Below, piece by piece: positions 8,889-30,941 of a stretch of DNA of 38,800 nucleotides. The stretch comes from Candidatus Kaiserbacteria bacterium. GTDB lineage: Bacteria > Patescibacteriota > Minisyncoccia > Phycocordibacterales > Phycocordibacteraceae. The notes beneath the pieces are model-generated. The model was not told where the DNA came from, ran no database searches, and was given only the letters and a program-made list of their open reading frames with translations. The translations under genes and the position numbers were made by a program. The stretch lies in the NCBI GenBank assembly GCA_029288835.1, contig JARIGN010000036.1, positions 1 through 38,800 on the forward strand, read 5' to 3'. Position 1 is the stretch's first letter, and the number at the start of each line of letters is the position of its first letter.

Positions 8889-9455
8889 ATGTCGGGACAC
8901 AATAAATGGGCACAAATAAAAAGGCAAAAGGGAGCCAATGACGCGGCAAAGAGCCGTATGTTTTCCCGCATGGGCCAACTCATTGCGCTTGAGTCGAAGA
9001 AATCTAATGGAAATATGACTGCGCCAGGGCTTGTGTCTGCTATCGCACGCGCGAAGGCCATCAATATGCCGAAAGACACTATTGATCGCGCTATTGCAAA
9101 GGGCGCGTCGAAAGATGCAGGCAGTCTTGAGCAGGTGGTTTATGAGTTTTATGGCCCAGGAGGCGTTGCGCTGATTATTGATGCGCTCACCGATAACAAG
9201 AACCGCACCACGCAGGAGATAAAGCACCTTATCTCGAAGAACGGCTTTGAGCTCGGCGCGCAAGGAAGCGCGCAGTGGGCTTTTTCAAAAGCGGGCGATG
9301 GTTCGCTTACGCCAAATGAGCCCCTCATGGATGTATCTGGTTCTGATGAAGAAAAGCTTGGTGAACTGCTTTCAACCTTTGGCGAACATGAAGATGTGCA
9401 GCAAATTTATACGAATGCTCGCGGATACGAACGCGTGAACGAAGAGGAAGAATAA
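8889..9455 (+). CDS. yebC: YebC/TACO1 family protein, short form
   Basis: The N-terminus MSGHNKWAQIKRQKGANDAAKSR (positions 1-23, broken only by a few family-variable residues) is the YebC signature, followed by GLVSAIARAKAINMPKDTID and YEFYGPGGVALIIDALTDN. Members act as DNA-binding regulators or as translation factors that relieve ribosome pausing. It has 188 aa against about 240 in most bacteria; the missing part is mainly in the third domain, where only QWAFSK and the EHEDVQQIYTNA tail remain. The start at 8889 is chosen by the MSGHNKW motif and the -10 box, not the longer frame from 8874. It lies between ruvB and ruvC. Confidence 0.93.
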   Translation: MSGHNKWAQIKRQKGANDAAKSRMFSRMGQLIALESKKSNGNMTAPGLVSAIARAKAINMPKDTIDRAIAKGASKDAGSLEQVVYEFYGPGGVALIIDALTDNKNRTTQEIKHLISKNGFELGAQGSAQWAFSKAGDGSLTPNEPLMDVSGSDEEKLGELLSTFGEHEDVQQIYTNARGYERVNEEEE

Positions 9456-9473
9456 GTTTAGAAGGATACAGGG

Positions 9474-9479
9474 TACAAT
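9474..9479 (+). promoter_or_regulatory. -10 box TACAAT of ruvC
   Basis: TACAAT ends 6 bases before the ruvC ATG, with no Shine-Dalgarno between. Confidence 0.6.
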
Positions 9480-9485
9480 TAGTCT

Positions 9486-9968
9486 ATGCGTGTTCTCGCT
9501 ATTGACCCCGGCTATGACCGCCTTGGCATGGCGGTAGTGGAAGGTGACCCCAGCAAACCTACCCATATATGGAGTGACTGCGTCACACCGGAGAAAGGCG
9601 CGCCTGCGGCGCGCCTCAGCGAAGTCTTCACCGCCATCACTAGCGCCATTGAGCAGCACTCGCCTGAATACCTCGCTATTGAGCAGCTTTTTTTCAGCAC
9701 AAATGCCAAAACGGCCCTTAAAGTCGCCGAGGCGCGCGGTGTCATCCTAGCGGCGGCAGGCGTAAAAGACCTTGAAGTACGTGAATTCTCTCCCCAGGAA
9801 GTGAAACTCGCTGTCACCGGCTATGGCGCCGCAGACAAAAAGGCAGTAGCAGCTATGGTTCCCAAACTTATTTCTCTTCCCCCATTGGCTCCGCCGAAGC
9901 AGCGCCTCGATGATGAGCTCGACGCGATCGCGCTCGGCATCGCCGCACTTTCGCGCCGCACGCACTAA
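9486..9968 (+). CDS. ruvC: Holliday junction endonuclease RuvC
   Basis: RuvC resolves Holliday junctions left by RuvAB. The RNase H-like fold and its four acidic catalytic residues are visible: Asp7 in LAIDPGYDRLG, Glu66 in LAIEQLFF, and Asp143 and Asp146 in DDELDAIALGIA. NAKTALKVAEARGVIL and FSPQEVKLAVTGYGAADK are typical. The length, 160 aa, is close to the family norm of about 170. Its own TACAAT box lies 6 bases upstream, although it follows yebC by only 30 bases. Confidence 0.95.
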   Translation: MRVLAIDPGYDRLGMAVVEGDPSKPTHIWSDCVTPEKGAPAARLSEVFTAITSAIEQHSPEYLAIEQLFFSTNAKTALKVAEARGVILAAAGVKDLEVREFSPQEVKLAVTGYGAADKKAVAAMVPKLISLPPLAPPKQRLDDELDAIALGIAALSRRTH

Positions 9969-9975
9969 ATTCATC

Positions 9976-10012
9976 TTATCCACATGCCGCATTCTCCACA
10001 CTTTGCAAAGTG
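9976..10012. promoter_or_regulatory. Lone DnaA box and a 14-bp palindrome
   Basis: A perfect DnaA-box match TTATCCACA occupies 9976-9984, directly after ruvC. A perfect palindrome CACTTTGCAAAGTG follows at 9999-10012, which could be an operator half-site pair or a hairpin. The rest of the 120-base gap has the short inverted pair TACC/GGTA and an AT-rich stretch before the next start. Confidence 0.4.
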
Positions 10013-10088
10013 CAGAGGCTTTTGGTACACATAAAGGGTCACCGTACCACTGCGGTATTTAGCGAAAATAATTAACTTTGTTGTATTT

Positions 10089-10298
10089 ATGGCTGATGAT
10101 GAAGTCTTGAACGACGACGAGCTCGAGGACGAAGCGGATCCCTTGGATCCTGTCGACCCGCTCGCAGCACCACTCGAACCAGGTCTCGATGATTTCGAGC
10201 TCCCTGACGAGGACGACCTAGAAGAGGATGAGGACGACCTTGATCCTGACCTTCTTGCGTCAGAAGGGTTCGGTATCGAAGAAGACGAGGAACTCTAA
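10089..10298 (+). CDS. Small highly acidic protein, 69 aa
   Basis: This is an unrecognised protein in which well over a third of residues are Asp or Glu, with repeated DDELED, EDDLEEDEDD and IEEDEEL blocks and Pro-Leu-Asp-Pro spacers. It is probably disordered, with no signal peptide or membrane segment. A strong terminator follows 18 bases after the stop, so it is the end of a transcription unit. No clear Shine-Dalgarno precedes the ATG; TTGTATTT lies directly upstream. Similar acidic proteins can mimic nucleic acid or bind basic partners, but that is speculation here. Confidence 0.7.
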   Translation: MADDEVLNDDELEDEADPLDPVDPLAAPLEPGLDDFELPDEDDLEEDEDDLDPDLLASEGFGIEEDEEL

Positions 10299-10310
10299 AA
10301 TTTTCCTCTG

Positions 10311-10337
10311 AAAAAAGCTCCCGTGGGGAGCTTTTTT
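10311..10337 (+). terminator. Strong rho-independent terminator
   Basis: GCTCCC (10317-10322), loop GTG and GGGAGC (10326-10331) are flanked by six A and six T, so it could work in both directions. It ends the acidic-protein unit just before the penicillin-binding protein promoter. Confidence 0.9.
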
Positions 10338-10342
10338 CGTGT

Positions 10343-10348
10343 TAGGAT
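10343..10348 (+). promoter_or_regulatory. -10-like box TAGGAT of the penicillin-binding protein gene
   Basis: TAGGAT ends 6 bases before the ATG at 10355, just past the upstream terminator. It is weaker than the TATACT boxes but keeps the same spacing. Confidence 0.45.
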
Positions 10349-10354
10349 TTACAC

Positions 10355-12676
10355 ATGCCAAAAAAGCAGCGCGTGCCAAAGAGCGCCAAACCTAAAAAGT
10401 CCCTTTCCCTTGGTGCACGGTTCGACGCCTTCTACACGCACTTTTTCCATAATCCACATCCACTCTTCAAAGTTCTTTTTGTATTTGTTGGTTTTTGTTT
10501 TGTCACGCTCGGCATCTTTTTTCTGTGGGCAGCCCTTTCTCCGCTTCCTGACGTAAACGCATTTATTGAGCAAAAGTCTGCCCTTTCTACTAAAATCTAT
10601 GACCGCACTGGCCAGACGGTACTCTATGACATGAATACTGACGTTAAGCGCACGGAGATTCCGCTCGCGAGCACGTCACCGTATGTGCAGCAAGCTACCA
10701 TCGCTATTGAAGACGCTAATTTCTATCACGAAGGCGCCATCTCCTTCACCGCTATCATCCGCTCCGCAATCACGGACCTTATTCATGGTTCTTTTGTGCA
10801 GGGTGGTTCTACCTTGACCCAGCAGGTTGTTAAAAACAGCCTTCTTACCCAGAAGAAAAGCGTGCTACGCAAGATCCATGAGTGGGTTCTTGCCTGGAAA
10901 CTCGGGCAGATTTACTCAAAGAACCAGATTCTCGAGCTGTACCTTAATAGCGCCCCCTATGGCGGAAACCTCTACGGGGTTGAAGCTGCGAGTCGTGCAT
11001 ACTTTGGCATTGATGCGAGCCAGCTCGATATCGCACAGGCAGCATACCTTGCGGCTATGCCGCAGTCCCCAACCTACTATTCACCCTATGGAAACAACGT
11101 AGCAGCGCTCTCTGCCCGCAAGAATCAGGTGCTTTCTCGTATGCTTCAGCTCGGCTACATAAATCAGGAGCAATATAACCAGGCGAAGAATGAGCAGGTC
11201 TCCTTTGATCCGCAGCAAAATAGCTCCATCATCGCGCCGCATTTCGTTTTCTATATCGAACAGTATCTTGAGAATAAATATGGTCCGGATGTTGGCACCC
11301 AGGGACTTACCGTTGTGACCACACTTGATAGCAGCCTGCAGTCTTCAGCAGAGTCTATTGTTAATAAATATGCGCTTGCAAATGCAAAAACTTTTAACGC
11401 AAGCAATGCATCCCTGGTTGCTATAGATCCAAAAACTGGGCAGATTCTCGCTATGGTGGGTTCGCGTAATTACTTCGACACGCAGATAGATGGCGCCTAT
11501 AACGCAACGCTCTCTCTTCGCCAGCCTGGTTCATCCTTTAAGCCTATTGTCTACGCTGCGGCACTCAATGAAGGCTATACGCCACAGACGGTTGTGTGGG
11601 ACCTTCCAACACAGTTCTCTACCTCCTGTGCCCCAAGCGACACCTATAACGACACGCCGCCGTGTTATTCTCCACAAAACTATGACAACAAGTTCCGAGG
11701 CCCGATGACCTTTACCACGGCACTCGCCCAGTCAATTAACGTGCCTGCTATCCAGGTGCTCTATCTCGCAGGTATCCAAAACGTCATCAACCTTGCGAGC
11801 AGTATGGGAATTAGCTCACTAGGTGATCCAAACCACTACGGCCTCACGCTTGCCCTTGGTGCTGCGGAAGTGAGCCTTTTGCAGCTCACGGATGCCTATG
11901 GTGTATTTGCTGATGACGGCCAGTATAATCCACCAACCGGAATCCTAAAGATTACCGACACGAACGGCACCGTCCTTGAACAGTTTACGCCACAGCCAAA
12001 GCAGGTACTTGATGCGGGTGTCGCTCATGATGTTTCGTACATGCTTTCTAATAACGCTGCGCGTCAGCCTGAGTATCCTCCTCAAAATCCATTCAATTTC
12101 CCTGGCTATGATGTTGCGGCAAAGACGGGTACCACGAACGATTCTCGTGACGCATGGACGGTGGGCTACACGCCTTCTATCGTCGTGGGTACCTGGGCTG
12201 GAAATAATGACAACACACCAATGGTGAAGGAAATTGCAGGTTATATTGTAGCTCCAATGTGGAATGCCTTTATGCAGGTTGCCCTTTCAAAGTCACCGGT
12301 TGCCTATTTTGGTGAGCCACGCACGATTCCTGATAACGCTCCTGCAGTTTTGAGGGGCGTCTATAACGTACCTATGGACGATGGCACCACCGCAGTCCAT
12401 TCCCTTCTGTATTGGGTGCATGCCCATAGTCCACTTTCCGGCCAGCCAAGCATCCCGGCAAGCGATCCGCAGTATGCCTATTGGGAATACCCTGTGCAGC
12501 AGTGGCTTGCATCAGGCGGCTATGTTTCTTCAGGTTCTTCTACTCCATCACAAACGACGCCAGGAACCACTACCACGGGCACTTCGGGCACTTCCTCAAG
12601 CTCAAATTTCAATGACCTTCTCCCAAATATAGTGAATCCTTTAGATTCACCGGTGCCTGCTCCTCAGAATCAGTAA
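10355..12676 (+). CDS. pbpA: Class A penicillin-binding protein (transglycosylase/transpeptidase)
   Basis: A bifunctional peptidoglycan synthase of 773 aa. A basic cytoplasmic tail and one membrane segment (about residues 38-60) lead to the GT51 glycosyltransferase domain with IAIEDANFYHEGAI (catalytic Glu119), GGSTLTQQVVKN and ELYLNSAPYGGNLYGVE. The transpeptidase domain has the SxxK motif at Ser393-Lys396 (GSSFK), SIN near residue 454 and KTGTTN near 592. The C-terminal tail from about residue 730 is Ser/Thr/Gly/Pro-rich and probably disordered. It is a single-gene unit between a terminator and the convergent DUF721-like gene. The symbol is approximate because pbpA and mrcA/ponA naming differ. 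Confidence 0.95.
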   Translation: MPKKQRVPKSAKPKKSLSLGARFDAFYTHFFHNPHPLFKVLFVFVGFCFVTLGIFFLWAALSPLPDVNAFIEQKSALSTKIYDRTGQTVLYDMNTDVKRTEIPLASTSPYVQQATIAIEDANFYHEGAISFTAIIRSAITDLIHGSFVQGGSTLTQQVVKNSLLTQKKSVLRKIHEWVLAWKLGQIYSKNQILELYLNSAPYGGNLYGVEAASRAYFGIDASQLDIAQAAYLAAMPQSPTYYSPYGNNVAALSARKNQVLSRMLQLGYINQEQYNQAKNEQVSFDPQQNSSIIAPHFVFYIEQYLENKYGPDVGTQGLTVVTTLDSSLQSSAESIVNKYALANAKTFNASNASLVAIDPKTGQILAMVGSRNYFDTQIDGAYNATLSLRQPGSSFKPIVYAAALNEGYTPQTVVWDLPTQFSTSCAPSDTYNDTPPCYSPQNYDNKFRGPMTFTTALAQSINVPAIQVLYLAGIQNVINLASSMGISSLGDPNHYGLTLALGAAEVSLLQLTDAYGVFADDGQYNPPTGILKITDTNGTVLEQFTPQPKQVLDAGVAHDVSYMLSNNAARQPEYPPQNPFNFPGYDVAAKTGTTNDSRDAWTVGYTPSIVVGTWAGNNDNTPMVKEIAGYIVAPMWNAFMQVALSKSPVAYFGEPRTIPDNAPAVLRGVYNVPMDDGTTAVHSLLYWVHAHSPLSGQPSIPASDPQYAYWEYPVQQWLASGGYVSSGSSTPSQTTPGTTTTGTSGTSSSSNFNDLLPNIVNPLDSPVPAPQNQ

Positions 12677-12716
12677 GACACTGAAGATACTTTCAGTTGC
12701 TACTCTTTGGGATAAT

Positions 12717-12968
12717 TTAACGAATTGAACGTACCTGTACGTCTCGCGCACGAATTCTTTCGAGAAGCTCTCCCTGTCTCATAAGGAGTTGTGACTTTAT
12801 AAGAGGAGAAACGGCGAGCTTCAATTCTTCATTTTTATACTGCACTTTCACCAGAGAAAGTTCACATCCTAGTATTGAGCAAATCTCCTCGACGCAAATC
12901 TTTCGTATTTGCGCCTCACGAACACCCGGGACCTTATAATTCAGTAATAAGTCTCCAAGCGTTTTCAT
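12717..12968 (-). CDS. Small DUF721/DciA-like protein, 83 aa
   Basis: The C-terminal half (VKVQYKNEELKLAVSPLIKSQ, then LLERIRARDVQVRSIR) resembles the core of DUF721/DciA, which helps load the replicative helicase in bacteria without DnaC. The usual pattern is an N-terminal helix, then a strand-strand-helix-helix unit with a final basic stretch; here only that core is present. It lies just after dnaN and near dnaA, where a replication role fits. A TATACT box lies 10 bases before the ATG (12979-12984). The frame is probably real, and the family call is tentative. Confidence 0.5.
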   Translation of the reverse strand: MKTLGDLLLNYKVPGVREAQIRKICVEEICSILGCELSLVKVQYKNEELKLAVSPLIKSQLLMRQGELLERIRARDVQVRSIR

Positions 12969-17543: not shown

Positions 17544-18800
17544 CTACTGCGCAAGTGTGTACGCCCAAAGCGAGCTGTCTTTCTTGTTTCTAAAGATTAA
17601 AACCTGTGAGTTAGGGTCAATCGTGAGGTTTACCGCATCAATATCTACCTTTCCGGTCGAAGAAGGATCAACAACAAGTGTTGCAAGGCGAGTTCCAAGG
17701 TCTATGCGCCAGATTTTATCGGTAAAGGACGCTGCGCCTTGGTACCAGTCGTCAGGAAGTGTCGCGCCGTCAGGAATACTGGAAGGAATAGCACAGTATA
17801 GGTCAGTATTATTTTGATCCCACACGCATTTCTCCGCGAGGGTAGCGAGCGGAAGAGTTGTTACCGCGCCGGTTGAGAGATCGAGGGCCGCCATGTGAAG
17901 TGTGGTGCCATCGGTGTAGCTATACAAAAGTACTTTACCGTTCGGGCTTGGAAGCAATATGAGTCCTGAAAGTGGGCCAAGAATTGGCGTAAAGGTATTG
18001 CCAGAAATAGCGAAAGCATAGCCATCAAGGTGCGCAGAGTCTTTGGTGGTGGCGATAAGGCCTGCGCCAGCCGGGTGAATAGCAAGCGCGCTCATCGGTG
18101 ACGTAAACACTGTTTTTACATTCGTTCCATCAGGATTTCCAACGCTCCCAATAGAGCTGTCACCGTTTGCCGTTAGTACAAAGACCGACTTTTGCCCGAG
18201 CACCGAAACCTGCGCGAGGTCCTGGTCGAGGAAATAGCCGCCGTTTCCGTCGTAGGGGAGCGCATAGGTGTTTATATGGGAAGTGCCTGCCGCCTGGGCA
18301 AGGAACTGCACAAAAGCCATTGAACCATCAGGAAGCCATGAGGCGGTCTGGATACCCGGCAATGTTTTGGCGGAAACACGCGAAAGCTTTCGAGAAAGCG
18401 CGAGGTAGGAATACACGTTGCCACTTTCACGGTCGATATAGCGCACTTCTACGTCCCCGGGCGTGTACGTGGTTTGCGTTTGTGGGGTACTGGAGGAATG
18501 AGCCGAAGTGACTGAGCTGGTGGCGATACCTGCAGGTATATCAAGTGCCACTTCCCCGCCCGCAACAGGGCCTGGCGTTATTTCTATGAGGTTAGGCGCC
18601 ACTTCCTTCCCCGCTACTGCTGCGCCAGTGCCGGGTTCAGTGGTTGTGGTGTTGAGTGCTTGCCCTGAGCTAGTGTCGCCGAACGGGTTACCGGGAGTTG
18701 CCGTAAGTTTTGGCTGCGGGCGCAACAAGAAAAAGAGAAAAACGATCAAAAGCAGCACCAGAAGGACCATTGCAATCACGATGAGTTGGTTGCGTTTCAT
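17544..18800 (-). CDS. Membrane-anchored beta-propeller-like protein, 418 aa
   Basis: An N-terminal membrane segment (residues 5-27, LIVIAMVLLVLLLIVFLFF) is followed by a Ser/Thr/Gly-rich stretch (30-120) and then repeated short beta-strand units such as ASWLPDGSMAFVQF, ALAIHPAGAGLIATT, LILLPSPNGKVLLYS and LYCAIPSSIPDG. These resemble TolB- or WD40-like blades. It is probably exposed outside the membrane as a scaffold. It starts only 2 bases after the stop of the pilin-like gene, so it is translationally coupled as the last gene of the secretion-like locus. The exact function is unknown. Confidence 0.7.
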   Translation of the reverse strand: MKRNQLIVIAMVLLVLLLIVFLFFLLRPQPKLTATPGNPFGDTSSGQALNTTTTEPGTGAAVAGKEVAPNLIEITPGPVAGGEVALDIPAGIATSSVTSAHSSSTPQTQTTYTPGDVEVRYIDRESGNVYSYLALSRKLSRVSAKTLPGIQTASWLPDGSMAFVQFLAQAAGTSHINTYALPYDGNGGYFLDQDLAQVSVLGQKSVFVLTANGDSSIGSVGNPDGTNVKTVFTSPMSALAIHPAGAGLIATTKDSAHLDGYAFAISGNTFTPILGPLSGLILLPSPNGKVLLYSYTDGTTLHMAALDLSTGAVTTLPLATLAEKCVWDQNNTDLYCAIPSSIPDGATLPDDWYQGAASFTDKIWRIDLGTRLATLVVDPSSTGKVDIDAVNLTIDPNSQVLIFRNKKDSSLWAYTLAQ

Positions 18801-18802
18801 AT

Positions 18803-19987
18803 CTAGGAGCCTGAAGGGAGATTGCTTTTAAGTTCTGCGCAGCACTGCATGTTTGCATCAAGGCTCTGACAGCATCCGCTTGGCACACCCTGATACCCTT
18901 CCCCAGCGAGTTGAGAACAACTGCTTCCCTTCGGATCAGGCTCTATATTTGTGTAATTGGTGCATGCCAAAGAGTCCTGTGCAGCCTGCGAAGATGCGGG
19001 AACTTGGCAGGTCACAGACGAACCAGATGCATCACCTATTACCGTACCCCCTTTGCTCGTGCAGTCTTGTGCCGAGGAAGCAGTTACTGCCGCTTGAGGT
19101 CCGGTAGATGCAGAAGCACTTCCGCTCACCGCTGGATCTGATTTAAGGTTGCTCAAATCCGTACCCAAATTCAAACTCAAGATCTTTGGATTAATGATAC
19201 TGAAAACAACTACCGGAGAAAGAATAAGTACGAGACCCGCAATGGCGGTACCAATAAGGCGGCGTGCGTCCTTTGTTTCTGTGACACTGTCACCGCCCAT
19301 GTACATAATGCCGGCGCGCATTATTTGGAGCACGGCAAGGGTCGCGGCGATGCCGATGCAGTACTTATAAAGTGCGTTAAAAAATGCTGAAAGGCCTTGA
19401 GCATTGGTAACAATAGAGGAATCATTAAATATGGGTAGGTTGGTGAGAGGAACGAAGTTTCCGCTTCCTGAGGTAGTATTACCGGCTACGCTTGGAAGTA
19501 CCTGCTGAATTTGCTGAAGTTGTTGCTGGGACGCTCCGGCGGTTTTGGCATTCTGATAAGCTCCACCCGCATCTTTTTGTTCATTTTGTGCATCAATTGC
19601 AGCAGCGGCAGTGTCACCTTTATTGGTATCTTGGGTATATTTAGCTTTCCAGTACTGTACCCCCATATCGTTTACTTTTGCGTCTGCTGCAGCAATTGCG
19701 GTGGTACTGCCCCCACTTGTTCGAAGTTGGTTATCCGCAGTAATAGCTTCTTGAAGCTGAGCATCAGCATTGTCAACGTTTATCTGATCGGTAGCAGCTT
19801 GTGCTGCTGCGGTATCCCCATTGGCTCGAGCGGTCTTTTCAATTTGCAACTCTTTTTGAGCGTCTGCATTGTCCTGTTGAGCTTTTTGATCCGCCGTAGC
19901 GCTTCCTTGAACTGCTGTTTGCGCATGAACCATGCTTACAAAGCTAAAAAAGAGGAGGGAAAAGGAGAATACAAAAAATCTTTTCAT
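18803..19987 (-). CDS. VirB2/TrbC pilin-like protein with coiled coil and Cys-rich tail
   Basis: A signal peptide (1-22, ending VHAQ) leads to a Gln/Ala/Asp-rich region (25-145) with repeats of DNADAQ and GDTAAA, likely a coiled coil. Next comes a unit with two membrane segments, FFNALYKYCIGIAATLAVLQI and RLIGTAIAGLVLILSPVVV, with IMRAGIMYMGGDSVTETKDA between, which is the layout of VirB2/TrbC-type T4SS pilins. The last 110 residues contain eight cysteines in four isolated and two paired positions (GCC, QCC). It has 394 aa; VirB2 proteins are about 100. I use the ATG at 19987, not 20038, because a TATAAT ends 6 bases before it and the signal peptide begins there. Confidence 0.7.
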   Translation of the reverse strand: MKRFFVFSFSLLFFSFVSMVHAQTAVQGSATADQKAQQDNADAQKELQIEKTARANGDTAAAQAATDQINVDNADAQLQEAITADNQLRTSGGSTTAIAAADAKVNDMGVQYWKAKYTQDTNKGDTAAAAIDAQNEQKDAGGAYQNAKTAGASQQQLQQIQQVLPSVAGNTTSGSGNFVPLTNLPIFNDSSIVTNAQGLSAFFNALYKYCIGIAATLAVLQIMRAGIMYMGGDSVTETKDARRLIGTAIAGLVLILSPVVVFSIINPKILSLNLGTDLSNLKSDPAVSGSASASTGPQAAVTASSAQDCTSKGGTVIGDASGSSVTCQVPASSQAAQDSLACTNYTNIEPDPKGSSCSQLAGEGYQGVPSGCCQSLDANMQCCAELKSNLPSGS

Positions 19988-19993
19988 ACGTTC

Positions 19994-19999
19994 ATTATA
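19994..19999 (-). promoter_or_regulatory. -10 box TATAAT of the pilin-like gene
   Basis: TATAAT ends 6 bases before the ATG at 19987 and contains the stop codon (19995-19997) of the upstream gene. Confidence 0.65.
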
Positions 20000-21023
20000 A
20001 GCCGAAGAGGCCGGTGTTGTTTTGGCTGCCAAAGACAACTGAAACCGTACTGTTTGCGGTAGCGTTTGAGCTTGAGTCGGATGCTGTATAGCTTATTACG
20101 GCCGTGCCGCCTCCTGAGCCGGTATTGCGCACGGTGAGTTCAGGGGCAGAGCCACTCTCTTCACCATTCATGCTCCAGTCAGAGGTGGGTGTGCCGGCAA
20201 AGTAGTACGGCACACCGAGGAAGGTGTCTTCTACGTCCGGCATCGTGTAGCTATCACTAAGAGCAACGTCATACAGAGGTCCTACGAGCGGTCCTTCTGC
20301 ATAGATGCGCGTAACGGGATCCACAGGTGATACTGTAGTCTCTGCTTGTGCTGCTAGGGTGCCATCCTGGCTTGTTACCGTCACCGAAACTGTCGCGTCA
20401 CGGTATTCCTGTGGCGCCTCAGCATTGAGGACGTTCTTTCCTATTCCGGAGTCTTGGTCGAGCACTTGGTCGCCAAGGCTCCAGGTATAGACGAGTTTCG
20501 AAGGGTCAATGGCCACGTTTGCCGAAGTGCGTAAGTCAGGCACTGCGATAAGGCGAACCTCTCCCTCTGATGGAACGAGAGCTGCGCCTTCATAAAAAGG
20601 ATGTGTGGTTGAAACTGGTTCTTCGACCAGTGCTACGGTTGCAGGGCGCAGGGTGAGTGACTGGGAATAGGTTTGCCCTCCAGAAACTGCCTTCACGGTA
20701 ATGTGCGTGGTACTACCAGGGCCCTGCAAAGGAACAGGCACACCTGTCGAACCGCTTCCTTTATATATAGTGGTGCCATTAACCGAGACACTTATAATCG
20801 CACCAGCGATATCAAAGACGGTACTGTTAGGGGTGACGGTAACGGTTGAATACGGAGTTGGATATTGCGGTGACACATCCACCGTGAGCGCGGGAACCTG
20901 TGCAGAAGCGTCAGCGGCCGCTGCAGTGCTTGGATCAACACTTTGCGCCCATACCCTTCCAAGCGGAAAGAGTGAAAGTGCAAAAACAAACGAAAGGGCG
21001 ATAGAAGAGAGAACGCGAAGCAT
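19995..21023 (-). CDS. Secreted beta-rich protein, 342 aa
   Basis: A signal peptide (1-26, ending VWA-Q) precedes a Thr/Ser/Val-rich extracellular protein with PKD- or Ig-like strands such as DVSPQYPTPYSTVTVTPN, KLVYTWSLGDQVLDQ and ATVSVTVTSQDG. The central SDWSMNGEESGS and the C-terminal TGSGGGTAVISYTASDSS are further beta-like elements. There is no membrane anchor. It lies between the 167-aa membrane protein and the pilin-like gene, whose promoter overlaps its stop codon, so a surface or apparatus-associated role is likely. I do not recognise the exact family. Confidence 0.7.
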   Translation of the reverse strand: MLRVLSSIALSFVFALSLFPLGRVWAQSVDPSTAAAADASAQVPALTVDVSPQYPTPYSTVTVTPNSTVFDIAGAIISVSVNGTTIYKGSGSTGVPVPLQGPGSTTHITVKAVSGGQTYSQSLTLRPATVALVEEPVSTTHPFYEGAALVPSEGEVRLIAVPDLRTSANVAIDPSKLVYTWSLGDQVLDQDSGIGKNVLNAEAPQEYRDATVSVTVTSQDGTLAAQAETTVSPVDPVTRIYAEGPLVGPLYDVALSDSYTMPDVEDTFLGVPYYFAGTPTSDWSMNGEESGSAPELTVRNTGSGGGTAVISYTASDSSSNATANSTVSVVFGSQNNTGLFGL

Positions 21024-21608: not shown

Positions 21609-23429
21609 TTAGGCTGCTTCTGCTTCAGCATTTCGTGCTTTTTCATCACGAATAGCGAGGAGTTGTGAAGGATCAGAGGTAATTATTTGGTCTTCGGTGT
21701 AGGAAGCGACCACTTTTATGGCCACATGCTTAAGTCCTGCAAAGAAAAGCCCCTCCCCCACCCCACTTTCGAGGAGCAAATACTTTTCTTCATCGGTCAG
21801 GTTAAAGGTTTGCTGGAGTACGTCGATGGTGGTTGGAGACTGTTTGAGCAAAAGCTGGATAGAAGAGTTCGTGAGGATTGGTTTTCCATAAGGCGAGCGT
21901 AAGAAGTCTTCCACATCCTGGGTAATGGTGGAGACGCCGAGGTAGTATTTACGGCCACGCTTCGCAAGGCTGTAGAGGAATGAAGCAGTATCTTCTGATT
22001 TCATCATCCACCATGCCTCGTCAATGATGAGCAGGCGCTTTTTGAGCTCATGGCGAATAGCATTCCAGATGAAGTGCGTCACGATATACATCGCCACTGG
22101 CTTGAGCTCATCTTCCATGTCACGCACGGAAAACACAATAAATTGCTTGCTTATATCGACGTTTGTCGGCTGGTTGAGGAAGCCGGAATAGGTACCCCTC
22201 GTGTATTTAGAAAGGCGCTGCATGAGCGACTCGCTGCCTTCCATACCTGAAAGCACGCTTTCAAAGTCGGAAAGGAGTGGTGGCTCGACACCGGTAAAGT
22301 CTGCTTCGCCGGTAATGTCCTTCAGCGCATAGGTTTCTGATATCGCGCGATCAATAATAGCGTCTTCTTCAGGTGTGAGGCCCCCAAGCATAATGCGGAA
22401 AAGGCCGACGAGGTTAATAATATTGGAACGTAAAATGTCAGCAGGTTCTTCATCTTCCTTCACTGGTGGTAGGTCAAACGGGTTAATGTGATGCTCAGAA
22501 GATAAGGAAATATTGAAAAGACGGCCACCAGTAGCCTGAGCAAGGTATTCATACTCGCGCTCAGGGTCAATAACGATCACATCAACGTCAAACATGAGCG
22601 AGCGGAGGATTTCAAGCTTCACGGCATAGGATTTCCCCGAACCAGACTTCGCAAAGGTCACAGAATTATAGTTTTCAAGGGAAAAACGGTCGAAAAGGAT
22701 CAGTGAAGAATTATGGCGGTTTATGCCGTACAAAATGCCGCGGTCGCTGGTGAGGTCAAAGGAAACAAAGGGAAAAATAGAGGAAAGTGCTGAAGAGGTG
22801 AGCTTCGTGTTTACCTGAAGCTCATCGTTCGCAAGCGGAAGGGTCGAGCGGAAGCCTTGTTCCTGCTGGAATAGAGCTGGTTTTGTGTAGATGAGCTTTG
22901 AGTCTAGGATTCCGCGCACGTCTGCTTCCGTCTTATTAAGTTCTTCTTCTGTTGAGCCATAGAGGGTTATATAAAGACCGGTATCAAAAAGGTGTTCTTG
23001 AGCCTGCTGTAGCTCATCGCGGAGGTTCTCAATGTCCTGGTATGCGGTGTCGAGCATCGGGTCGCGCACCAAGCCCTTCTCTTCCCTATCAGAAATCTGG
23101 CTTTGTACCTCAGCAACCTTTCTCTGGAAGCTGCGGAGTGCCTGGGCCGTATCAATAGGATGCACGAAAATCCCTACATCCAGCACCTTGTCGAGGTTAA
23201 TGATAGGCATGAACCAGCTGTCAGCGAGGAAGCGAGGGTAGGAGATCGTATAAAAGGTGCGGGAGAGTTTTTCGCCTATGACGAGATCCTTTGAATTTAT
23301 CTTAAGGCCTGCCGGCGCAATAGTGTCAGCAAGATCGAGGGTGCCCTGCGCATAAATATCTTTCGGAAGCACGGGCGCTAGTGCCGTCGTGTCTTCTTTT
23401 TTCTTATTCAAAAAATCAAGGAGCGCCAT
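21609..23429 (-). CDS. virB4: VirB4/TraC-type T4SS ATPase
   Basis: VirB4 is the universal ATPase of type IV secretion systems. The 606-aa protein has an N-terminal CagE/TrbE/VirB-like region (about 40-210, containing VLDVGIFVHPIDTAQALRSF and a coiled coil) and a RecA-like motor. Walker A AKSGSGKS lies at 260-267, IDPEREYEYLA follows, and Walker B LLIIDEAWWMM lies near 445. ISTITQDVEDFL-like residues (VSTITQDVEDFL) mark the sensor segment. The preceding 207-aa gene may supply further N-terminal TraC-like functions. A TATACT box 6 bases upstream fixes the start. Confidence 0.92.
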   Translation of the reverse strand: MALLDFLNKKKEDTTALAPVLPKDIYAQGTLDLADTIAPAGLKINSKDLVIGEKLSRTFYTISYPRFLADSWFMPIINLDKVLDVGIFVHPIDTAQALRSFQRKVAEVQSQISDREEKGLVRDPMLDTAYQDIENLRDELQQAQEHLFDTGLYITLYGSTEEELNKTEADVRGILDSKLIYTKPALFQQEQGFRSTLPLANDELQVNTKLTSSALSSIFPFVSFDLTSDRGILYGINRHNSSLILFDRFSLENYNSVTFAKSGSGKSYAVKLEILRSLMFDVDVIVIDPEREYEYLAQATGGRLFNISLSSEHHINPFDLPPVKEDEEPADILRSNIINLVGLFRIMLGGLTPEEDAIIDRAISETYALKDITGEADFTGVEPPLLSDFESVLSGMEGSESLMQRLSKYTRGTYSGFLNQPTNVDISKQFIVFSVRDMEDELKPVAMYIVTHFIWNAIRHELKKRLLIIDEAWWMMKSEDTASFLYSLAKRGRKYYLGVSTITQDVEDFLRSPYGKPILTNSSIQLLLKQSPTTIDVLQQTFNLTDEEKYLLLESGVGEGLFFAGLKHVAIKVVASYTEDQIITSDPSQLLAIRDEKARNAEAEAA

Positions 23430-23462: not shown

Positions 23463-24086
23463 CTAGGCTGCCACACGGATAGGGTCTTCCATGTCGCCTA
23501 GGTTGAAGGAGCGATACATGAGCTCAATCACTTCTTCCGTCCCTAGTGGGATAGCGCGTATACCTGAAGCACCGAGTCCGGAAGCCACGAGCGCCATACG
23601 CTGCTCAAGCTGCACGCGATACTCCTCAAAAGAGTCCTGCTGCTCCCCTTTTTCATCTTTTTTTCCAAAACCAAAGCTTTTTACGACGTCTTCCGTACCG
23701 CTCGGCGCAAACGGTACCACCACATAGAACATTTTGGTCATAATATCGGCACCTTCGATGAAATTATGAATAAAGGAAATGTATTCACGGAGCTGGAGGC
23801 GCATGAGCTCGGTGGTTTGCATGTCGAGGCGCTCCTGCAGGAGGGCTAGATAGGGGCGAATATCCATTTTCCGTGAGTGCACTGCTATTTGCACGCTGAA
23901 ATCAAGGGTATTAAGGAATGACTGAAACCCACCAATAACCGCGCGCTGTTCATCTTCCGATTTAAGGGAGAAGTTAATGGAAGAACACATCAAAATCCCA
24001 CGATAGCCGCCATCTTTAAGGATAACGACCCCATTGCGAATCTCCTGGACCGGTACAAAATCTTGGGCTGCTTTAGATGCGGGCAT
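23463..24086 (-). CDS. TraC-like conjugation protein, 207 aa
   Basis: A soluble protein that opens with DFVPVQEIRNGVVILKDGGYRGILMCSSINF and continues with SEDEQRAVIGGFQSFLNTLDF and QIAVHSRKMDI, a pattern common before VirB4 in these genomes and resembling the N-terminal domain of TraC/VirB4. A helical middle (ERLDMQTTELMRLQLREYI) and MFYVVVPFAPSG follow. No Walker motif is present. It lies between prgI (18 bases) and virB4 (33 bases). It may be a detached VirB4 N-terminal domain or an adaptor that pairs with it. No clear promoter or Shine-Dalgarno was found, so it is probably cotranscribed with prgI. Confidence 0.7.
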   Translation of the reverse strand: MPASKAAQDFVPVQEIRNGVVILKDGGYRGILMCSSINFSLKSEDEQRAVIGGFQSFLNTLDFSVQIAVHSRKMDIRPYLALLQERLDMQTTELMRLQLREYISFIHNFIEGADIMTKMFYVVVPFAPSGTEDVVKSFGFGKKDEKGEQQDSFEEYRVQLEQRMALVASGLGASGIRAIPLGTEEVIELMYRSFNLGDMEDPIRVAA

Positions 24087-24104: not shown

Positions 24105-24515
24105 TTATTCGGCTTCCTGCGGCGCGTTCACGTCCTTAATATCGAGAGACCACGCGAGGTCGCGCAGCTTGCTTTCGGATAGGCCAAGCTTGGTGCGGTG
24201 CTCGGGAAGTGCCACTACCGGCTTTTTTGCTTCTGGAGCAGGGTCCTTTTTCCATAAATAGAGTCTTCCGCTCACGAAATAGTTAAACGCTGCTTCCATT
24301 ATTTCAAGAAAACTCTTTCCGTTCAGCTTATAAAACGCGAGCGCGAGTGCGAAAAGCGCGACAGGAATGGAGAGAATCCAGCCGAGAGTGCCGAGGGTGA
24401 GTATAAGGGTAACGCAAATGCCTGCGCCGCCTGCAACAAAGATAAATTGTTTCCACGTGAGCGGGCCAAATATCTTATCCTCCACTTCAATGAACTGCGG
24501 TACCTGGTATTCCAT
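24105..24515 (-). CDS. prgI: PrgI family protein
   Basis: PrgI-family proteins are small inner-membrane T4SS components similar to VirB3, found in Gram-positive conjugation systems. The 136-aa protein opens with the typical YQVPQFIEVEDKIFGPLTWKQF, then two membrane segments (about 24-42 and 44-62) and FLEIMEAAFNYFVSGRLYLWKK. The C-terminal tail of about 45 residues is charged and cytoplasmic. Placement just before the TraC-like gene and VirB4 is the usual VirB3-VirB4 order. A TATACT box lies 7 bases before the ATG. Confidence 0.85.
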   Translation of the reverse strand: MEYQVPQFIEVEDKIFGPLTWKQFIFVAGGAGICVTLILTLGTLGWILSIPVALFALALAFYKLNGKSFLEIMEAAFNYFVSGRLYLWKKDPAPEAKKPVVALPEHRTKLGLSESKLRDLAWSLDIKDVNAPQEAE

Positions 24516-25612: not shown

Positions 25613-28306
25613 TTATGGTTGTTGAGCTTGGGGTCCTTGTTGCTGTCGCGCTCTACTTATTGGTTGATTGTCACGGCCCCGAATTCTTCTGCCATCCCAC
25701 TGGCGGCTTGGGTTTTGCCCAGCAAGATATCTATCCATCGATTCAAATTCTTTTTGTTTACGTTCCCTTTCCTGTTGATCTGCTGGCGGGTTATCTAGGA
25801 AATGCTGGTATCTCGCCTGAATCCTTTCCATGAGCGCTTCTCGTTCCTCCGTGTTAATAGCTCCATCTTTTGTTACTATGGCCGATAATTTTTCAGCATT
25901 GAGTGCATCAACTACCTCATCCTCAAGTAACTCATTTGCTTTGAAATCGGCAAACTGCTTACCATTCATTGCACGTGCAATTCTACTTAATTGTTCCCGA
26001 TTTCCATCATTATTTATAATATTTCGCGCCTTACTAATACGACGAGCATCATTAAATTGCTTTTGCATGGTATTTGTAAGAGAAGATTTCTTAGAAAGAT
26101 TCGTGAGAATTCCATCATCAATAAGCGATGAACCAGTGGCGGCATCTACTCGAGCAAGAACTGCTTTTGCAAATTCCGGCGCAATTTGTCCTGCAAGAGC
26201 TAGCTCATCTTCCTTCATTGCTTTAATCATTTTATCAATTTCTTCATTATTTAAACCTTCCGTACTGAAGCGAGCAGCAGTAAGTCTATGCTTAAAGTCG
26301 GAATCAAGATTATTGTTACCCGCAATTGCTTTCATTTGATCAGTAGAAAGACTCTTAGCTGCTACATTCATTTGCTCATTTGAAAGTCTGAGCTCAGAAA
26401 GTGTCTTTCCAATTTCCTCATTAGACATTTTTTGCATAGCCATTTCCATCTTTTCTCGTTCCTCCGCTGAAGCACCCATTTTAAGACCTTCTTGGATGGC
26501 TTTTTTGTTTTCAGCCTCATGTGCGACGTGAGTAGTATGTTTTTTTCGTTCCTCATCCGCTTTCTTTTTGTCAGAATAACCTTTTGTACCAGGAAGGCTT
26601 GCGTCACGGGCTTTGTTCAAACCTCCCTCGATTCCAGCACCGAACATGTTATCGAAACCACCTGCCAGTGCCCCAGTAATACCGCCTGCATTACGCATTT
26701 TTCCAATTGTAGACGCATATAGTTTGCTTGATCCATTGAAAACCCTTCCTGCAGTTTGGCGATAGCCGAATTGTGCTCCATATGCCCCCAAACGAACAGG
26801 TGCCATAAATGTTTTCCTGGTTGCGTATGCAGCGCTCTTAGAAGCAAAATCTGCACCAATAGCCCCCATACTTTTTGCCACCATTTGTGAGGCAATCATA
26901 AAGCCAGTAACGAGCGCGAAGAAGAGGATAGCACTACCATAGTCGGATTTACCTGAGGTAAATACGCCGAGAATGGTAGTGGCGCTACTCCCGTTTGCGA
27001 AAGTACGCTGCAGCGAAAGCATTATTTTTAAGCTCACCAATATTAAAAGGAGATAGACCGGCGCATAAAATGCTTGACTTATGAGCGTTTTACTCCAGCG
27101 TGTCCACTGGCTATTTAGAGGTGGTATAGCAAGTGCTACAAGTCCCACGGGAGAAAGGATTAGCACTAACACAAGTACAATTGCACGAATTACAAGTAGT
27201 ATGGCGCCAAAAAGAAGTACAAAACAAGTTATACCCATAAAAATAGCAAGACCAATAAAGGCTATTAATTTTTGGGTATTGTTTCCAGCAGCAAAGCTTT
27301 TTACCGCATCGCTAAAGCTTGTAGACAATACATTACTCACTCCAGAAATTAATCCTGAACTTTGAGATGCGGTATCAAAAAGATTACTAAGTCCAGCAGC
27401 TTGGAGTATCTCAGATGAAATACCTACATTTGTACTGCAAGGCTGGTTATTGGAGGGACTGCCACTCCCAGGGTTACAGAGTGATCCTTGTCCCGCCTGG
27501 TTATATATTGCTGCACTCAATACATTTGAGATATCAATAACTGCTTCTGCTCCGAAAAGACTAAAGTTCAACAAAAGCGCGACGATTATTAGGGTTGGAA
27601 TAGATTTTCGAGTAGAAGCAGGATTTAAATCTAGGATCATGAGAAGTCCCATGAATATGAACCCAAATATAAGTACAATATTTCCTATGTCTCTCAGAAT
27701 TCCCCATGCCGTAAGAAGACCTTGTGAGTTACCAAAATAAAGTCCGAACTGGAACACTGTTATAACCACTACCCAGTTAAAGAAAGCACCTATAAGTGAA
27801 AGGAAGAAACCGATAAATTCAACCGCAAGAAGAGCAATAATTGCTACCCAGCCAATCAAACAATCTCCCCAGGTAGAGGGGTTCAAAGAACATGACTGTA
27901 CAGCTGGAGCAGCTGCCACTGAGGTAACATTTCCTTTCGCGTCCGTAGCTGTAGTTTCAGAGACATTTGTGGTCGGATTTACCACCTGATTTACCGCACT
28001 TCCATCTTTATTAGTTATTGTACAGACATCACTCCCGCTGCTTAGGTCTAGTGAAGCTACGACAGCACAGTCAGCGGTTTGATTAGTTGTAGAATTTGTA
28101 TAGCAAGTATCTCCACTAAATCCTTTGCAAGAGACTGTTTTCCACTGAGGGTCACTTTCAATTTTTTGTTCAGGAAGTTCACCGCTAAGTGGTTGGTTAT
28201 TTGCAGCTTGCGCATGCACGAGAGAAAAAGGAAGAAATAAGAAAAGAAATAGAGAAAATATAAGATTTAGCTTTAAGAAACTGTTTTTGTGTGAGAGGGT
28301 TTCCAT
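25613..28306 (-). CDS. TrbL/VirB6-like polytopic membrane protein
   Basis: This 897-aa protein has a signal-like N-terminus (1-33, ending VHAQ), a Cys-containing external part (40-150), and then seven or so membrane segments between about 155 and 520, for example IVLIFGFIFMGLLMILDLN and IRAIVLVLVLILSPVGLVA. TrbL/VirB6 proteins form the inner-membrane channel of T4SSs and show this layout. Residues 560-897 are a large charged, helical, soluble tail with repeated heptad-like blocks (EEREKMEMAMQKMSNEEIG, LTNLSKKSSLTNTMQKQF) ending in a Gln/Pro/Arg-rich stretch. The tail is far longer than in TrbL. It starts 4 bases after the preceding gene's stop, so it is coupled to it. Confidence 0.75.
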   Translation of the reverse strand: METLSHKNSFLKLNLIFSLFLFLFLPFSLVHAQAANNQPLSGELPEQKIESDPQWKTVSCKGFSGDTCYTNSTTNQTADCAVVASLDLSSGSDVCTITNKDGSAVNQVVNPTTNVSETTATDAKGNVTSVAAAPAVQSCSLNPSTWGDCLIGWVAIIALLAVEFIGFFLSLIGAFFNWVVVITVFQFGLYFGNSQGLLTAWGILRDIGNIVLIFGFIFMGLLMILDLNPASTRKSIPTLIIVALLLNFSLFGAEAVIDISNVLSAAIYNQAGQGSLCNPGSGSPSNNQPCSTNVGISSEILQAAGLSNLFDTASQSSGLISGVSNVLSTSFSDAVKSFAAGNNTQKLIAFIGLAIFMGITCFVLLFGAILLVIRAIVLVLVLILSPVGLVALAIPPLNSQWTRWSKTLISQAFYAPVYLLLILVSLKIMLSLQRTFANGSSATTILGVFTSGKSDYGSAILFFALVTGFMIASQMVAKSMGAIGADFASKSAAYATRKTFMAPVRLGAYGAQFGYRQTAGRVFNGSSKLYASTIGKMRNAGGITGALAGGFDNMFGAGIEGGLNKARDASLPGTKGYSDKKKADEERKKHTTHVAHEAENKKAIQEGLKMGASAEEREKMEMAMQKMSNEEIGKTLSELRLSNEQMNVAAKSLSTDQMKAIAGNNNLDSDFKHRLTAARFSTEGLNNEEIDKMIKAMKEDELALAGQIAPEFAKAVLARVDAATGSSLIDDGILTNLSKKSSLTNTMQKQFNDARRISKARNIINNDGNREQLSRIARAMNGKQFADFKANELLEDEVVDALNAEKLSAIVTKDGAINTEEREALMERIQARYQHFLDNPPADQQERERKQKEFESMDRYLAGQNPSRQWDGRRIRGRDNQPISRARQQQGPQAQQP

Positions 28307-28310
28307 ATTA

Positions 28311-29876
28311 TTAGGTTCCTAGCCCGCACCTATTCGCCTCAGCCGAAAGCTGGTTCATCTGGGTGAGAAGTGTGGGAGCAGTTGAGGTTGAGCCGCTACT
28401 ATCCTGGCTCTGGTTCGCCGCATAGGCTATGTCAGATGCGCTCGGGAGTGTACCGAGGAGAGTCGTGTAGGAAGTCGAGATAGTCGAAAGGGTGGCGGAT
28501 TGGTCAGAGGTGCTGCTCGCAATAGACTGCATCTGTGTTTGCATATTTTGGAGTGTAGTAATACCTGAAGTTGCCAAAGAAATTTCCGTAGATGCTTGCT
28601 GAATCACGGGCTGCACCGTCGACGCTATGAGGGACTGCGCATTTGGCATGCAGGCGCTGCGAGAAAGCGCCGCGTTCGCTGCGAGTGCAGCATTGTTAAT
28701 GATGTTCCAGTTAGCAATGAATCCTTGGAGCTGGGTTATCTGTTGGGTGATGGTCGAAGAAAACTGTGAAGAAAGCGTCGTGTTGATAGAGGTTTGGGTA
28801 GGATCCGTTTGAGTAAAGTAGGTTGACCCTGCGGGGGTAGTTGCCGTGGCGCCGGTAACAGGGTTAGTGATGGTTGTTGCAGAGGTAGAGGGCTTAGATG
28901 TACCAGAAAGACCTCCCGAACCCACCACTTGGTTAATGAGCTGGCTAAGAATTGAGCCAAGGAGTTCACCAAAGGTGTGCGTGTTCACGAGTGAATCCAC
29001 GCCTGAGCCAAGAGATTTGTCGAGTGTTGCTTTTATGGTCGCACCTGGAGTCTTAATCGGACTATTTGGGCAGCCGCTGTTTGCAGAAAGCGACGTCAAT
29101 GAGGTGAGTACTTGGTTTATTCCTGCTACTGAAGTGACCTGAGTTGGCTTCCCTGTTGTCGTGGTATTACAGGTGCCACGGGATGAAGCAAATCCCTGGC
29201 CCCAATTCATCTCGTCAAGCTTCAGGCTCTTCGCATTTTCTACCACAGAGGCAAGGCCATTCTGGGCGATCATGGTAGCGCCAAAAGGATTATTGGCAGG
29301 ATTTGACCATGCGTTCATTTCAGCAGTGAGTCCTCCCCCATGAACAAGATCGCCGTTATAGAGTGCAGTAGGGTTTGAGCTATATTTATTTAACGTATAG
29401 GCGTTTTGAGTAAAATATCCGGTAGGGCTTGTAGACTGTAAATAGCTGTTCCCTACGGCTGTTGCGACTGCAGTCTGATACGGAGATTTAATAGAGCCAT
29501 TGGTCTGGAGCTGCTGGATAAAACTGTTTGCCGCAGTGTCGCCTGCGGTTTTAAGGTCAGCGGCAAGATTCGTAGTATAGCCTGCACTACCGTTTGGTCC
29601 CTTGTTAATTGAGTTAACCGTACTTTTAACGACTGACTGCAGTAAGGATTTAGATAGTGCCCAAGCAAGGGGGTTAAGGATGTAGGTGAGGAAGTGGTTG
29701 GCAACATCATTAATGGCGCCAATAGTATTTTGTACAAGGTTCGTTGGGTCAATAACTATGTCACCGACTCCAAAAATTGCTTGTGCAGGCTGGGCAAAAC
29801 CAATCGAGACAAAAAGGATAAGACTCAGCGCGATGGTTGAAAGCTTTTTGGTGAGTGAGCGTGAAGTTGTATTCAT
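28311..29876 (-). CDS. TrbJ/VirB5-like secreted protein, 521 aa
   Basis: After a signal peptide (1-33, ending PAQA) the mature start IFGVGDIVIDPTNLVQNTIG resembles the TrbJ/VirB5 opening, where a DPTN-x-x-QN motif is typical. VirB5/TrbJ proteins are minor pilus or adhesin components. Long helical, Ser/Thr/Gln/Ala-rich stretches follow, with four isolated cysteines and a helical end (TTLQNMQTQMQSIASSTS). At 521 aa it is over twice the usual size, so large insertions are present. It is the second gene of a tight run: 3 bases after the 353-aa gene and 4 before the TrbL-like gene. Confidence 0.6.
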   Translation of the reverse strand: MNTTSRSLTKKLSTIALSLILFVSIGFAQPAQAIFGVGDIVIDPTNLVQNTIGAINDVANHFLTYILNPLAWALSKSLLQSVVKSTVNSINKGPNGSAGYTTNLAADLKTAGDTAANSFIQQLQTNGSIKSPYQTAVATAVGNSYLQSTSPTGYFTQNAYTLNKYSSNPTALYNGDLVHGGGLTAEMNAWSNPANNPFGATMIAQNGLASVVENAKSLKLDEMNWGQGFASSRGTCNTTTTGKPTQVTSVAGINQVLTSLTSLSANSGCPNSPIKTPGATIKATLDKSLGSGVDSLVNTHTFGELLGSILSQLINQVVGSGGLSGTSKPSTSATTITNPVTGATATTPAGSTYFTQTDPTQTSINTTLSSQFSSTITQQITQLQGFIANWNIINNAALAANAALSRSACMPNAQSLIASTVQPVIQQASTEISLATSGITTLQNMQTQMQSIASSTSDQSATLSTISTSYTTLLGTLPSASDIAYAANQSQDSSGSTSTAPTLLTQMNQLSAEANRCGLGT

Positions 29877-29879
29877 ACG

Positions 29880-30941
29880 CTATTGGGAGGATGGAGCTCC
29901 AAGCTGGGACTCAGTCTTTTGTGCATTATTAGTTGCATTGATGAAGAAATAGCCAGGATTACCCTTCTCAATGGTGACTTGCTCCTGAGAAAATACAGAG
30001 CTAACGCTCGCGAGCCCTGCAACCATTGCTTCAGAGTCATTTTCATACTGGGCAAGCCCGAAATAGGCACGAAGCGGGTCTGTATTGATCATGCTCATGT
30101 CGGTGATGTCGGCTCCAAGACGTGCCATGGCATTTGCGGTTGCGAGGTGTGCGTTTTCCATTTCTACCGGTACTGATACTTGCATGATAGCTGCAGAAAG
30201 CGACGTATAAGAGCTCCCAATTTTACCTAGGTTTGCCAAACCACTTGTGTCGTTCTTCTCTACTACAGCTGCAAAGTAGTCGAGTTCATTTTCAGTCGTA
30301 CGCGGATTATTTTTTGCAAAAGCATTTTCCATTGCCGCTGCGTATGTTTGGACTGCGTCAGGTCCGCTTCCTCCCTTCTGTATTTGATCCATAGAATACG
30401 CGTCCTTATGCTCGTTTTGGATAGCAAACTGCTGCAGGGCGCTTTGTGCCGCAGCACCCACCTCCTCTTCAGAAGGCTCAGCTCCATTGCTCGCAGCATC
30501 AGCGCTTTGGCTGAGGTATTGCTGGAGAAGCATTTGAGAAAACTGGTCGGTGAGGGAGCCAGGAGCTGGAAGCACGCCATCAAGCTGGCTTATGTCGGTG
30601 GAGGTCGCCTCCGTAGAAGAAGCGGTAGCCGCAGAAGGAGTAAGGAATTTAGCCTTTACGAGTCCTTGAGATACCGCTTCCCCATCGGTCATGTCAGGGC
30701 TAAAAGAGTGAGCGTTATTAGGATTAAGGCCATAGAGCTCCTCTTCCCAATCAGGAAGCCCGTCGCCGTCGCTGTCTCGTTGCGCGTATTCCTGAAGAAG
30801 TTGCTGGGTGGAGGCTGCATTTGCAAAGGAAGGGTTTAGAAAATTGAGATTTCCATAAGAAAGAAAAAGCGATCCGCCTATAAGTACGCCTGCTATGACA
30901 AGCGCACCGAGAACTCGGGCTTTTTGAGAGACTAATGCCAT
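29880..30941 (-). CDS. Membrane-anchored protein with a calcium-binding-type repeat, 353 aa
   Basis: An N-terminal hydrophobic segment (about 10-29) anchors the protein. Residues 56-75 (RDSDGDGLPDWEEELYGLNP) form a thrombospondin type 3 / EF-hand-like loop rich in Asp, a likely calcium site. The rest is helical, Ala/Ser/Gln/Glu-rich and probably extracytoplasmic. A Shine-Dalgarno AGAGG lies about 5 bases before the ATG, and a TATTAT box lies 12 bases upstream, so this gene has a normal leader, unlike most neighbours. It is the first gene of the secretion-like run. The function is unknown; calcium-dependent assembly or adhesion is possible. Confidence 0.7.
   Translation of the reverse strand: MALVSQKARVLGALVIAGVLIGGSLFLSYGNLNFLNPSFANAASTQQLLQEYAQRDSDGDGLPDWEEELYGLNPNNAHSFSPDMTDGEAVSQGLVKAKFLTPSAATASSTEATSTDISQLDGVLPAPGSLTDQFSQMLLQQYLSQSADAASNGAEPSEEEVGAAAQSALQQFAIQNEHKDAYSMDQIQKGGSGPDAVQTYAAAMENAFAKNNPRTTENELDYFAAVVEKNDTSGLANLGKIGSSYTSLSAAIMQVSVPVEMENAHLATANAMARLGADITDMSMINTDPLRAYFGLAQYENDSEAMVAGLASVSSVFSQEQVTIEKGNPGYFFINATNNAQKTESQLGAPSSQ

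Follow-up and report, generated by a model that had tools for sequence, protein, structure and literature searches.

A VirB2-like T4SS protein of a Kaiserbacteria genome with a conserved pilin core and variable, putatively disulfide-stabilised exported parts

Described pilins and the T4SS locus of the window

VirB2 pilins are processed and are small when mature, and VirB5 is an exported, helical protein of the pilus tip. The solved chains of Agrobacterium VirB2 (T-pilus) and of the Aeropyrum conjugation pilus subunit have 68-84 residues without added domains; these chains are two-helix hairpins, and a hairpin is predicted for the protein studied here, which is 394 residues long. In Patescibacteria, VirB2-like pilins with a pilin-family core have been described, encoded near virB4 and close to dnaA in a monoderm-type T4SS with TrsD, PrgI and VirB4 (Quinonero-Coronel 2025, PMC12102498). 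The present locus shares these traits. However, the available sections of that report describe no fused exported domains, Cys-rich tails or N-terminal helical regions for the VirB2-like proteins and arrays, and they state that no PrgB-type T4SS adhesin was detected in Patescibacteria. In Southlakia epibionticum, predicted pilins are likewise tied to a T4SS that is needed for epibiotic growth (Wang 2023, PMC10633639). According to the available part of that study, the pilins in the T4SS cluster of the epibiont are essential, as is the T4SS where tested. That pilin series lies inside the T4SS cluster, whereas here a single long protein is encoded at the operon and a short array elsewhere. Pilins of Patescibacteria are already published. 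A fitting description of Cys-rich or disulfide-bearing pilins from this group was not found in the open-licence literature, which is weak evidence that the variable Cys tails reported here are new.

The window is a stretch of 38,800 nucleotides from a Candidatus Kaiserbacteria genome (GCA_029288835.1, contig JARIGN010000036.1). Its T4SS operon, which includes the pilin-like gene, runs from 30941 down to 17544 and adjoins yidC, dnaA and dnaN of this Patescibacteria genome. The following members are relevant here.

17544..18800, (-) strand: membrane-anchored protein directly downstream of the pilin-like gene (35 of 35 named loci)
18803..19987, (-) strand: VirB2-like (T4SS_pilin-related) 394-aa protein with exported parts fused at both termini (ORF list; orthologues in 88 of 98 relatives)
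19995..21023, (-) strand: exported protein directly upstream of the pilin-like gene (33 of 35 named loci; column identity)
21609..23429, (-) strand: VirB4-type ATPase (NF045971, 378.8 bits, over cut-off)
23463..24086, (-) strand: TrsD-like / VirB4 N-terminal-like protein (NF041427, E=6.5e-6, below cut-off)
24105..24515, (-) strand: PrgI, VirB3-like (PF12666, 39.1 bits, over cut-off)
25613..28306, (-) strand: polytopic membrane protein, probably VirB6-like by position and hydrophobicity (ORF list; no match in the family search)

The pilin-like gene shares with canonical VirB2 genes a place in a T4SS locus, as its operon also encodes the VirB4-type ATPase and PrgI, both scoring over their cut-offs. 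The T4SS setting of an earlier sequence-only reading is supported. At the head of the operon, 29880-30941 encodes a protein with a weak match to bacterial TSP3 repeats (22.4 bits; cut-off 25). The VirB6-like gene is preceded by a gene for a conserved exported protein (28311-29876), whose start resembles what we take to be a TrbJ/VirB5 motif; no such Pfam match was found among 9 orthologues. The downstream neighbour (17544-18800) has exactly two cysteines in 31/32 orthologues, which are the pair 325/336 that is invariant by alignment.

Layout of the protein and its pilin core

The open reading frame begins with an ATG at 19987 and remains open for 394 codons; 7 bases separate this ATG from the stop codon of the upstream gene. 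The sequence-only reading had proposed a three-part protein, and its signal, helical region, two-helix core and eight-Cys tail with CC pairs were all located in the frame.

19922..19987, (-) strand: signal peptide, residues 1-22 (hydrophobic segment from residue 3; probable cleavage after VHA, by eye)
19493..19921, (-) strand: Ala/Gln/Asp-rich helical region, residues 23-165 (AlphaFold2 helices; searched alone, one weak match in 97 other genomes, E=7e-4, with internal stop codons)
19142..19462, (-) strand: conserved pilin core, residues 176-282 (column identity, Pfam, mean model pLDDT 81)
19295..19402, (-) strand: core helix 1, predicted membrane helix 1, residues 196-231 (models and hydrophobicity)
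19193..19285, (-) strand: core helix 2, predicted membrane helix 2, residues 235-265 (models and hydrophobicity)
18806..19186, (-) strand: species-variable C-terminal tail, residues 268-394, 127 residues (low pLDDT; searched alone, no match in 97 other genomes)
18839..19063, (-) strand: eight tail cysteines, residues 309-383, with a CC-x8-CC module at the end (positions; module count against shuffles)

The signal-like start reads MKRFFVFSFSLLFFSFVSMVHA/QT by eye. With 394 residues and fused parts, the protein departs from the canonical VirB2 size of about 100 residues without added domains. The hydrophobic segments of the core lie near residues 209-228 and 242-272, and its two helices are joined by the basic loop DSVTETKDARR, which is probably cytoplasmic. 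The tail cysteines are at positions 309, 327, 342, 357, 372, 373, 382 and 383, so that two CC pairs are among them, and a ninth cysteine (residue 210) is within the first membrane helix.

The core had been proposed to be VirB2/TrbC-like. The TrbC profile (TrbC/VirB2, PF04956; curated cut-off 27.9) matched the whole window protein with E=0.011 (16.3 bits) and the core alone with E=5e-4 (20.7 bits), and T4SS_pilin (PF18895; curated cut-off 26.6) matched the protein with E=0.13 (12.8 bits). The window protein itself is therefore below both cut-offs. However, a relation to both profiles was found through its orthologues: at E<=0.01, 31/34 orthologous cores matched T4SS_pilin and 30/34 matched TrbC, and the orthologue L110 reached 40.9 bits, over the T4SS_pilin cut-off. 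On these profile matches, the window protein is VirB2-like, related to the family via orthologues and without certified membership. Among other sequence searches, PHROGs gave nothing for the window protein, NCBIfam gave only a chance match to FtsL, and a PDB search with the core profile returned chance matches to a receptor and no pilin.

We also compared the predicted core, which is a hairpin of two long helices, with known structures. In a second-look ranking, the Aeropyrum conjugation pilus subunit was first (Z 7.0, rmsd 2.8, 72 aligned residues), and the Agrobacterium T-pilus chains had Z-scores of 5.3 and 5.1; pilus chains took ranks 1, 40 and 46. Generic helical hairpins reached scores of this level as well. 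Foldseek gave no significant match for the core model by its own E-values. Since unrelated hairpins score alike and the Foldseek E-values are not significant, the core homology rests on the profiles, and the fold agrees with it without being proof. Structure prediction as a check on the layout yielded a helical N-part and a core hairpin, but a tail of low confidence (AlphaFold2 pLDDT about 40-50).

A homologue of the core was present in 54/58 genomes of the genus and in 34/40 from other families, and in 95/105 genomes of a second, overlapping family sample. The two named loci without the upstream neighbour are at a contig end. The order upstream protein, pilin, downstream protein, yidC and dnaA is kept and also holds in most loci of other families; in L102, as an exception, the downstream gene stands before the pilin. 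Relatives at these loci carry the names Paceibacterota, Parcubacteria, Kaiserbacteria, other Patescibacteria or unclassified records. Mean column identity, which allows a rough comparison across differing sequence sets, reached 59% in the core (34 sequences), 50% in the upstream neighbour (12 sequences) and 55% in the downstream neighbour (11 sequences); over the full length of the pilin-like protein it was 17% (33 sequences).

Variable exported parts and tail cysteines

Compared with ten near relatives, the window protein showed 56-72% identity in the core and 22-38% in the tail. In many orthologues the tail begins with a low-complexity linker (by eye). Such a conserved core with variable attached parts fits the expectation for a surface in contact with a host cell. 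An N-region of more than 60 residues was found in 17/77 orthologous proteins; by eye, only the window protein and L085 have a very long helical one that lacks Cys. The latter comes from an independent single-cell assembly and has a comparable arrangement of long Cys-free N-region, core and Cys tail. The two N-regions match pairwise at E=0.002 along 54 residues, whose composition is biased. A search for homologues with the same three-part layout gave this comparable form in L085; orthologues in general carry other tails and mostly no long N-region. The protein had been regarded as an odd chimera. This was not borne out, because pilins at this locus generally have Cys tails within the genus, and the one unusual part is the long helical region at the N-terminus. 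These results show that the window protein belongs to a conserved group of pilin-like T4SS proteins with tails and is not a lone chimera.

The N-terminal region had been described as a Gln/Ala/Asp repeat of about 120 residues. The compositional bias was confirmed, but the region spans about 143 residues, and a sequence repeat was rejected: the best self-match scored 45 against a shuffle mean of 37.2, and 14.7% of 300 shuffles reached 45. In the AlphaFold2 model, the N-part forms long helices at 2-55, 59-90 and 95-149, with pLDDT exceeding 90 for most of residues 41-120. The fold search returned generic helical hairpins (F-BAR, AcrA-type and others) without a significant Foldseek match; VirB5 was not among the matches listed, and the Pfam search gave no VirB5 match in the window protein. 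VirB5 offers a possible analogy only, as an exported, helical protein at the tip (PMC12857230, in its available part); the searches showed no sequence or fold relation to it.

We next consider the cysteines. The number of tail cysteines was even in 77/77 distinct orthologues, ranging from 0 to 24, and 69 of these had at least two. The 77 were obtained from 96 full-length ORFs once identical cores were removed; four ORFs of the first set that had an open 3' end (L014, L032, L033 and L044) were excluded, and five loci without a core match in tblastn (L058, L067, L070, L073 and L074) were never counted. The 8/77 tails without Cys include L106, a truncated 119-aa ORF counted as zero. By BLASTP, the tails fell into 26 clusters, and 20 unrelated clusters carry Cys. 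In a held-out set of 41 loci, L194 had no core match and 15 of the remaining 40 were identical to earlier ones; tail Cys were even in 24/25 (21/22 of those with any Cys). The odd exception, L192 from another genus, has 13 tail Cys and one more just before core helix 1 (by eye). Single cysteines in the core occur in 23/77 orthologues. Counts in the N-region vary with the chosen start, to which the single odd values of L027 and L043 were attributed.

Among the same-locus controls, odd counts were found in 9/25 dnaN, 6/12 dnaA and 23/25 TrsD proteins, whereas parity was kept in the cytosolic VirB4 (0/26 odd) and in the downstream neighbour (1/32 odd). Since the last two are rarely odd, descent alone can hold parity, and the strength of the observation lies in the many unrelated tails. 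Even Cys counts by themselves are no proof. A CC-x(3-12)-CC module was present in 8/77 orthologous tails, compared with a mean of 0.39 and a maximum of 3 in 500 shuffles. VKOR is encoded in 55/58 genus genomes, including that of the window, and VKOR and a thiol-disulfide oxidoreductase have been tied to type IV pilins in the Patescibacteria phylum in the available part of an earlier report (PMC6744442). The earlier proposals of exported flanking parts and of tail cysteines that behave as paired are supported.

Possible roles of the tailed pilin

We lean slightly towards the reading that the protein is a T4SS pilin-family (VirB2-like) subunit whose lineage-specific domain, stabilised by disulfides, is displayed outside the cell and probably serves host contact. 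The computed results behind it are the core homology via orthologues, the position in the operon, the conservation of the core beside variable attached parts and the even Cys numbers. Against it stand the scores of the window protein below the pilin cut-offs, the generic level of the structural matches, the PDB profile search without a pilin, the odd tail of L192 and the tails without Cys. In such a mechanism, the protein would be exported by Sec, its core would form a membrane hairpin whose two ends face outwards, and the VKOR pathway would oxidise the tail cysteines. The N-terminal helices and the disulfide-locked tail may then be displayed on the outer face of a pilus or of the T4SS channel, touching the host cell. 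For the bulk of a filament, the short pilins of an array on another contig (C36) would be more suitable, leaving the 394-aa protein as a special subunit, at the tip, at the base or decorating the pilus. The tip or anchor role proposed from the sequence is a reasonable guess. Most likely, the protein is an exported contact module that is stabilised by disulfides and anchored by a T4SS pilin-type core.

The orthologues of other families bear on an unlikely alternative, in which the protein is no pilus subunit but serves the T4SS channel as a membrane-anchored wall factor. Its core would then be the anchor for exported domains that bind or cleave peptidoglycan, in place of the often missing VirB1. 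In the syntenic orthologue L056 (G091:C4), a peptidase M15_4 domain follows the core (PF13539, E=7.7e-13, over cut-off), in favour of such a factor. Four other syntenic orthologues from other families (L059, L060, L069 and L075) share H, H, D and HWH as invariant residues, a set that resembles LAS peptidases; tails of this type were found in 16/188 class genomes, and most follow a two-helix core (by eye, 15/16 ORFs extracted). However, Pfam does not recognise these four tails as peptidases, their H-x7-D spacing departs from what we take to be the LAS pattern, and hhalign of these proteins with L056 aligned the pilin core alone. The window tail has no detectable wall-related domain. A peptidase reading of it was rejected, as it has no Pfam match and by eye no H/D/HxH set, which places it outside LAS/M15.

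It is distinctly improbable that the protein is the major pilin of the operon and that both fused parts are cut off in maturation as propeptides or chaperone-like pieces. The known processing of VirB2 to a small mature form and the linker at the start of many tails would fit such a cleavage, but inspection by eye showed no conserved cleavage motif, and the even Cys numbers across many unrelated tails, together with the enzyme domain in one, suggest that the tails act. An assembly or frameshift artefact, which the sequence-only reading had named as a possible cause of the layout, is hardly credible: no point in its support was found, the frame is open over 394 codons, and long N-regions and Cys tails recur in orthologues from independent assemblies, with a layout in L085 that is comparable and Cys tails general among orthologues.

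The contact module remains our preferred reading, and a broader version of it is possible but doubtful. In Paceibacteria, the virB4-linked pilin may be a display scaffold, with a conserved core and exchangeable exported domains that are disulfide-rich in the genus and peptidase-like in other families. These domains would stand in for the adhesin (PrgB/VirB5) and the wall hydrolase (VirB1) that are missing, and would contribute to the choice of host cell. As Patescibacteria are dependent on host cells, a conserved core with species-specific, probably disulfide-locked exported domains is a testable candidate for the part that makes host contact. The tailed pilin would also link the VKOR pathway, already noted in the phylum (PMC6744442, available part), to the T4SS.

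A second pilin locus lies near gyrA in the genome of the window (L076, G000:C36). At the end of that contig, 12037-12732 encodes a PEP-CTERM-like protein (by eye), which may be due to misassembly or foreign DNA. The pilin genes at 9019-11946 comprise four for short pilins and one for a pilin of 471 residues, whose tail has 26 Cys, and T4SS_pilin matches were found in 57/58 genomes of the genus.
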